A DNA stretch of 36,478 bases from Streptacidiphilus carbonis (GTDB taxonomy: Bacteria; Actinomycetota; Actinomycetes; Streptomycetales; Streptomycetaceae): assembly GCF_000787775.1 (NCBI RefSeq), contig NZ_BBPM01000023.1, positions 1 to 36,478 of the forward strand. The letters are read 5' to 3'. This document shows positions 21,680 through 23,629 of this stretch, piece by piece. Position numbers and translations under genes: made by a program. Numbering within the stretch: position 1 is the first letter of the stretch; each line of letters opens with the position of its first letter. Under the pieces are notes generated by a model. The model had not been told where the DNA came from and did no database searches. It was given only the letters and a program-made list of their open reading frames with translations.

Positions 21680-23461
<1,782 letters not shown>

Positions 23462-23510
23462 TCAGAGGCTCGGGCGGAAGAAACCGACGACCGACGACTG
23501 CGGCGTGTCT

Positions 23511-23585
23511 CCTGTAGAAAGCGCACAGCACAGCTCCCCGCGGCGAGGGAGTCGGCCTTGTGAGTACTACAGGCCCTCGCCGCGG
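23511..23585 (-). promoter_or_regulatory. leuA attenuator: mutually exclusive RNA structures
   Basis: On the leuA strand, CCGCGGCGAGGG (23585-23574, within the leader peptide codons) can pair with CCCTCGCCGCGG (23549-23538), a perfect 12-bp stem with a 24-nt loop. Inside the loop, CCTGTAG (23573-23567, the end and stop of the leader peptide) can instead pair with CTACAGG (23517-23511), a 7-bp stem. The two pairings cross and cannot both form freely. Ribosome position on the leader peptide would choose between them. Confidence 0.7.
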
Positions 23586-23614
23586 CAGCTAAGAAGAAGC
23601 AGCCGGGTACGCAT
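23567..23614 (-). CDS. leuA leader peptide, MRTRLLLLSCRGEGL
   Basis: A 15-codon frame from ATG 23614 to TAG at 23567, with four consecutive leucine codons (CTG CTT CTT CTT). Three of them are CTT, which is rare in this high-GC genome. It lies about 120 nt upstream of leuA. Leucine shortage would stall the ribosome on these codons and alter folding of the RNA downstream. This is the known design of amino-acid leader peptides, including those described for actinomycete leuA. Confidence 0.88.
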   Translation of the reverse strand: MRTRLLLLSCRGEGL

Positions 23615-23623
23615 GATTCGTCC

Positions 23624-23629
23624 ACCCTA
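23624..23629 (-). promoter_or_regulatory. Probable -10 of the leuA leader promoter
   Basis: TAGGGT (leuA strand) ends 9 nt before the leader ATG, so transcription would start within about three bases of it and the leader peptide would be translated with almost no 5' untranslated RNA. No convincing -35 is seen at 16-18 nt. Confidence 0.45.

Follow-up and report, generated by a model that had tools for sequence, protein, structure and literature searches.

The LEU element before leuA in Streptacidiphilus carbonis: a leucine leader with rare codons, a conserved pseudoknot and copies before other genes

The leuA gene of Streptacidiphilus carbonis is preceded by a member of the known LEU element of Actinobacteria, described by Seliverstov and colleagues in 2005 (PMC1262725). 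The accessible text of that report sets out a leader peptide, a pseudoknot and a base stem between the Leu run and the leuA Shine-Dalgarno sequence, and the identity of its helices with those called S1 and S2 here rests on that text. We analyzed the leader within a stretch of 36,478 nucleotides (the window) and among its relatives. Our preferred reading, to which we give a probability of roughly 0.6, is that a leaderless leucine peptide carries its sensor codons 5 nt before an H-type pseudoknot, and that stalling controls the translation of leuA. We are evenly divided on a wider reading, a modular attenuator family of Actinomycetes in which the pseudoknot is a fixed actuator and the slot 5 nt upstream an exchangeable sensor. 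With the LEU element of PMC1262725, the window shares the Leu-run leader, the pseudoknot and a Leu run that could base-pair with the Shine-Dalgarno sequence of leuA; its genus adds an insert between S1b and S2b. Two findings go beyond that report's text as covered here: coevolution of the S2a/S1b strand with the Shine-Dalgarno region, and copies before leuB, leuC and short-form leuA. A copy that the report's text does describe away from leuA sits within a transposase gene of Bifidobacterium. For the actinobacterial leuA leader, work from 1999–2005 left paradoxical mutation results and a proposed protein-binding site. Leucine and valine are made industrially with some actinobacteria.

Table 1. 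Features of the leuA leader region in window coordinates.
Feature	Position	Strand	Basis or remark
leuA, 2-isopropylmalate synthase	21680..23455	-	NCBIfam NF002991, TIGR00970; Pfam
leuA Shine-Dalgarno sequence GAGGGAG	23457..23463	-	sequence
S2 3' arm GUCGGUC	23489..23495	-	read from window sequence and same-genus loci
CUACAGG segment, complement of leader end 23573-23567	23511..23517	-	window-specific
S1 3' arm (S1b)	23538..23549	-	covariation, alignment
CUCCCUC, candidate sequestor strand overlapping S2a and S1b	23545..23551	-	7 bp with leuA Shine-Dalgarno sequence
S2 5' arm GGCCGAC (pseudoknot helix)	23551..23557	-	within S1 loop
Leader ORF MRTRLLLLSCRGEGL	23567..23614	-	15 codons and TAG
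S1 5' arm (leader codons 10-14)	23574..23585	-	covariation, alignment
Sensor codons CTG CTT CTT CTT, Leu5-Leu8	23591..23602	-	sequence and codon bias
-10-like box TAGGGT (TAnnnT)	23624..23629	-	near-fixed spacing to leader ATG in relatives

An earlier note on this DNA had proposed a 15-codon peptide with a run of four Leu codons, three of them CTT, and this peptide is present, reading MRTRLLLLSCRGEGL from the ATG at 23614 to the TAG at 23567; its fifth Leu is encoded by CTG. Counted from the first ATG at which leuA could start (23455), the leader ATG is 159 nt upstream; a second leuA ATG (23446) suits the Shine-Dalgarno spacing better. Abundance of the operon's end product in the leader peptide is a mark of classical terminator-type attenuators that the window leader bears as well. 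Leu-run leaders were found at all 80 leuA loci on relatives' genome contigs, a set of close kin since the best 80 of 587 relatives were kept, and at 29/29 relatives' leuA loci from the phylum search, 67/70 further loci of the class, 68/70 hold-out loci and 13/13 same-genus relatives. No leader was found at L151, L201, L206 and L220, and no orientation at L210, L212, L214, L216 and L221. The earlier note had let its claim hang on the conservation of this run or of the complementary segments in leuA leaders, and both the run and the stem S1 are kept across the class; the note was right in outline to see a leader peptide that senses Leu, is probably leaderless and can adopt alternative RNA pairings.

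The leader is probably translated without an untranslated region before it. The TAGGGT box ends 9 nt before the leader ATG, and a TAnnnT motif ending 8-10 nt before the ATG occurs in 81/81 sequences (the window and the 80 genome-contig loci), compared with 0/2754 positions when the same test was applied further upstream. Within 6-13 nt of the ATG, the motif is found in 105/116 sequences of the class set and 59/68 of the hold-out. The use of TAnnnT as a -10 box is taken from the accessible text of PMC8079986; a scan for the sigma-70 consensus found no promoter at the leader. The conserved spacing agrees with a transcription start near the leader ATG. In Streptomyces lividans TK24, the transcript of LeuL1 is leaderless, its start having been mapped in the same study (PMC8079986, as accessible), and the 15-residue LeuL1 peptide, MRFGLLLLSCRGEGL, is nearly identical to the window leader, with FG at residues 3-4 where the window has TR. 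Leaders of this gene have also been met elsewhere: the accessible parts of the respective papers report that a uORF ahead of leuA is protected by ribosomes in Mycobacterium abscessus (PMC4974804) and list leuA leaders of Corynebacterium (PMC5784534, PMC4046766), while ilvB1 leaders are the subject of PMC13236596.

The sensor slot has a real preference for rare codons. Of the 934 codons for Leu counted over 22 window genes, 12 are CTT, yet CTT is the last Leu codon in 84/84 Streptomycetaceae and 73/87 class leaders. It is also the last Leu codon in 24/24 leuS leaders (25 loci, one without a leader found). The leuS attenuators of Streptomyces (LeuL2; PMC1262725 and PMC8079986, as far as accessible) have a leaderless Leu-run leader like that of the window. 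In the window's relatives, they share the CTG-CTC/CTT-CTT codons of the leuA leader but, unlike the window, continue into an intrinsic terminator. Consequently, the codon choice is no side effect of a pairing with leuA, and the proposal that the bias is due solely to a stem between Leu run and Shine-Dalgarno sequence was rejected. Across the order, the codon pattern was seen together with a terminator, judged by eye, at 24/25 leuS loci (L279-L302); the window genome's own leuS leader is MRSVRLLLSRPR (L297). The earlier note had also supposed that the CTT-decoding tRNA is limiting. The tRNA-Leu genes found in the genome comprise two with anticodon GAG and one each with CAG, UAG, UAA and CAA, with 13 of 71 tRNA matches typed, and at this incomplete typing the gene count lends no support to a scarce tRNA-Leu(GAG). 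By standard wobble rules, tRNA-Leu(GAG) also reads the common codon CTC.

Two crossing helices, forming a pseudoknot, are kept by compensatory change. The first, S1, is the 12-bp stem that the earlier note had built from the peptide's own codons as left arm, exactly as described (23585-23574 with 23549-23538); in the window all 12 pairs are Watson-Crick, and the left arm begins 5 nt after the last Leu codon. Covariation in the leuA leaders of relatives, which the note had suggested as a check, is evident. In alignment A1 (87 sequences hand-chosen from 112 candidates, L168 omitted), S1 has 97.3 percent paired cells and changes on both sides in 7 of 11 pairs, S2 as aligned has 77.5 percent paired cells, and the whole structure beats its slid versions on every measure. 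When the arm was fixed 5 nt past the last Leu codon and the best partner taken among 49 positions, S1 paired at 10 or 11 of 11 positions in 169/172 discovery and 62/68 hold-out sequences, for example CCGCAGCGAGG/CCTCGCTGCGG and CCGCGTCGAGG/CCTCGGCGCGG. Six hold-out leaders have Pro as their last residue (L317, L318, L321, L324, L326, L329), and their stop codon falls within the S1 5' arm.

The second helix, S2, forms between the S1 loop and a stretch that in most cases lies 10-20 nt past S1. It had been overlooked in the earlier note, which had also missed that the S1/S2 region and the Leu run are each complementary to the Shine-Dalgarno sequence of leuA. Among partner swaps, 0/2000 were as good as the native S2 pairing in each of the class discovery (n=87) and hold-out (n=68) sets; the figure was 140/2000 in Streptomycetaceae, where the helix hardly varies. 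In the window, S2 includes a single G-U pair and its loop is longer, and its 3' arm lies further from S1 than usual owing to the genus insert. This insert, apparently a hairpin, varies in length among members of the genus (window 23496-23537; L265-L277). Within this group, Streptacidiphilus jiangxiensis (L002) and the same-genus genome G570 (L275) have identical leader and UTR sequences, which makes it probable that the window belongs to Streptacidiphilus. The automatic search for the S2 3' arm picked GUCGGUUU, a few nucleotides downstream of GUCGGUC.

The plain leader fold was not more stable than its shuffles (z 0.79, 157/200 at least as stable), so that the structure is visible only by comparison, and whole-leader thermodynamic stability was dropped as a signal. 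Another pairing did not survive comparison. The earlier note had paired the leader stop region with a segment beyond it over 7 bp, and while CCUGUAG/CUACAGG is there in the window, an exact complement of the leader's last 7 nt, searched within 140 nt downstream, was found in 1/81 sequences, the window only, and by eye in 0/13 same-genus loci. We therefore rejected it as window-specific.

The same pseudoknot occurs before other genes. A covariance model built from 44 leuA elements (R1) matches at least 140 of 148 class genomes. In the window's own genome, the leuA copy is the only one (next best R1 match at E 0.44; one R2 match at E<=0.01), and neither model matches at the leuS leader. Among the stretches covered, the pseudoknot stands before leuB at 16 loci (L377, L380-L387, L390, L429, L430, L433, L437, L442, L449), all of which exceed the NCBIfam cut-off for 3-isopropylmalate dehydrogenase; at a seventeenth leuB-type locus, L441, the leader is present, with no leuB within the stretch covered. 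In both loci examined for it, leuB is followed by ilvE, the branched-chain aminotransferase gene (E 1e-81 and 1e-73, from partial ORFs that fall below the whole-protein cut-off). Three further copies precede leuC (L378, L379, L439; NCBIfam), and three precede the short-form leuA (TIGR00973; L452, L453, L454) in genomes without a long-form match, so the LEU element follows function and not gene descent. Second leuA copies carry it too. At four other loci (L431, L435, L438, L440), a LEU-type element with the Val/Leu leaders MLVV, LLVT, LVLVV and VVVT precedes a small protein that has a below-cut-off match to Pfam LeuA_dimer in one case of four (E 0.12) and resembles, by eye, the regulatory domain of LeuA. 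S1 is kept in an alignment of 33 sequences that includes 11 leuB- or leuC-type copies. The weak R2 matches L432, L436, L443, L444, L445 and L446, and also the match L451, were judged to be chance, with no branched-chain leader. The element family can be searched by covariance model. Rfam release 15 gave no match above the gathering score for the window leader or for 13 loci with copies elsewhere. In a literature search that left subscription papers mostly outside, we found no report of copies before leuB or other genes; as far as this search goes, the copies before leuB, leuC and short-form leuA are new, which is not proof of novelty.

What changes before leuB is the sensor. The slots of the 17 leuB-type leaders, several of them close kin, read VRIL, VLIL, IFVL, VLI and similar, with Ile in 17/17, Val in 16/17 and Leu in 17/17. 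Their codons include GTA for 15/21 Val, ATT for 7/17 Ile and CTT for 14/23 Leu; within leuB itself, GTA, ATT and CTT stand at 2.2, 2.3 and 2.5 percent. There is an even chance, in our judgement, that the slot of the modular family holds Leu before leuA and leuC, and Val, Ile and Leu, often as rare codons, before leuB-ilvE. Natural codon swaps beside an unchanged pseudoknot offer a direct and simple test of codon sensing, and this family-level pattern is the part worth following. An attenuator that senses codons predicts such an exchange to suit the operon, whereas a binding site for a protein would not need it. At 13 of the 17 leuB-type loci (L381-L387, L390, L429, L430, L437, L441, L449), leuB is separated from the element by a conserved small ORF whose end reads ALQEAMDRRDNGGETGH or similar.

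How the element would act on leuA can be sketched from these parts; the stalling, the direction of control and its placement at the level of translation are what we infer. When charged tRNA-Leu runs short, a ribosome would stall on the leader Leu codons and hide the Leu run, leaving S1 and S2 free to form. With S1 and S2 formed and the run covered, neither S2a/S1b nor the Leu run would hide the Shine-Dalgarno sequence, and leuA would be translated. When leucine is plentiful, the ribosome would travel on over the S1 5' arm as far as the stop codon; once it is released, the Shine-Dalgarno sequence would be paired by S2a/S1b, by the Leu run or by both. The logic resembles that of erm-type translation attenuators, in which a ribosome halted on the leader exposes a start site that is otherwise concealed; in those, the signal is a ribosome stalled by a drug and not by a shortage of amino acid, and no pseudoknot is known from them.

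Coevolution suggests that the S2a/S1b strand, common to S1 and S2, takes part in such a translation switch, which makes it a concrete switch to mutate. Its complementarity to the Shine-Dalgarno region was spotted in the first set and then tested, and the hold-out loci were collected afterwards. After removal of row and column means from the native and swapped duplex energies, the centered energy was -1.68 kcal/mol in the discovery set (n=88) and -1.19 in the hold-out (n=68), the latter drawn from other species of largely the same families and with column-permuted controls that average -0.22 and not 0. In each set, 0/2000 swaps and 0/20 column-permuted controls were as low. The effect is smaller in Streptomycetaceae (0.45, 0/200 swaps). 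When the strand was split, the junction alone gave no signal and S1b alone gave one in the discovery set only; contiguous helices alone differed little from swaps, and a reversed-junction control reached 13/200. At the leuB-type loci, pairing of S2a/S1b with the Shine-Dalgarno sequence of the next small ORF was matched by 17/2000 swaps (n=13; the other 4 of 17 loci have no small ORF, and the doubtful starts L382, L387, L390 and L429 were retained). The class set in the pairing tests includes four outside-class loci (L094, L096, L097, L102). The tests omit 4 of the 80 genome-contig loci (distance filter), L112-L139 (Streptomycetaceae repeats), L168 (mis-anchored run), six outside-class leaders, and L332 and L340 (no leader found); a few other mis-anchored rows were kept, such as L092, L094, L316, L345 and L358.

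Folding simulations back the translation switch only weakly. With ribosome footprints in place, the start site was more open in the stalled state than at the stop codon in 75/84, 60/87 and 51/68 sequences. In nested partition-function folding, the mean unpaired probability of the Shine-Dalgarno sequence, stalled versus at stop, was 0.38 versus 0.20 in Streptomycetaceae; the class sets gave 0.35 against 0.26 and 0.35 against 0.21. Most of this simulated opening is owed to the ribosome covering the Leu run, which is more often the partner of the Shine-Dalgarno sequence than S2a/S1b is, and other partners take 0.30 to 0.64; masking S2a/S1b in the stop state raised access slightly (0.20 to 0.24, 0.26 to 0.30, 0.21 to 0.22). 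In the window itself, constrained folding showed next to no switching, with the Shine-Dalgarno sequence unpaired at 0.39 stalled and 0.35 at stop. Since the simulated switching is modest, and practically absent in the window, the switch is a supported proposal and not a result.

The base-stem model of PMC1262725, as its accessible text gives it, assigns the anti-Shine-Dalgarno role to the Leu run: the pseudoknot brings the run near the leuA start, and a stall frees that start. We regard this as a tentative contender at somewhat under even odds. When the window leader is folded to minimum energy without coding sequence, GAGGGAG pairs with the Leu run (23600-23593), and with the pseudoknot imposed the mean pairing probability of this stem is 0.51, 0.33 and 0.53 in the three sets. 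However, adding 30 nt of coding sequence leaves the window with a probability of at most 0.02, and in longer stretches the minimum-energy fold no longer contains the stem. Coevolution of the run with the Shine-Dalgarno sequence is weak in the discovery set (69/2000 swaps and 1/20 column controls as low) and hold-out (22/2000 and 0/20), and it gives no signal in Streptomycetaceae (57/200 swaps) or in the leuB-type slots (830/2000, n=13); the leuS leaders with terminators, moreover, use the same Leu codons. The mutation paradox may have its root here, in that altering the Leu codons of leuA also alters a strand that could base-pair with the start site.

Classical or Rho-dependent transcription attenuation, in place of control at translation, seems to us unlikely. 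A terminator scan found no terminator-like site in the window leader, unlike the classical terminator-type attenuator, and leuL1 is without a typical terminator according to the accessible text of PMC8079986, although the leuS leaders of relatives and some outside-class leuA leaders have a like peptide followed by what appears by eye to be a terminator. In the leuB-type loci, 261-779 nt separate the element start from the GDGIG motif of leuB downstream, which is far for start-site occlusion of leuB itself and speaks for attenuation. That the pseudoknot instead binds a regulatory protein and the peptide is no sensor, as PMC1262725 in its accessible text prefers because the S. coelicolor leuA leader mutations (Craster 1999, as cited there) misfit classical attenuation, would suit the strong structural conservation but is improbable, since leuB-type leaders hold the pseudoknot fixed while the codons 5 nt upstream become Val, Ile and Leu to fit the ilvE operon, which favors codon sensing by the ribosome, and since the S1 offset from the sensor codons is near-invariant and these codons are often rare. 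The mutation results cited there nonetheless count against our preferred reading too.

A use of the pseudoknot beyond the class was considered and rejected. A phylum sample of 149 genomes gave matches in 14: 12 class members, the window's own genome among them, and two from outside, of which G108 is an ordinary leuA leader (L102) and G046 a chance match within a coding region. Three further outside-class leuA leaders are of the same build (L094, L096, L097). In 6 of 12 outside-class stretches (L211, L213, L215, L217, L218, L219), the leuA leader ends one codon after the Leu run and is followed a few nucleotides on by a hairpin and then, by eye, an intrinsic terminator, which would make it a transcription attenuator in the same place. 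At four other loci (L431, L435, L438, L440), a LEU-type element with the Val/Leu leaders MLVV, LLVT, LVLVV and VVVT precedes a small protein that has a below-cut-off match to Pfam LeuA_dimer in one case of four (E 0.12) and resembles, by eye, the regulatory domain of LeuA.
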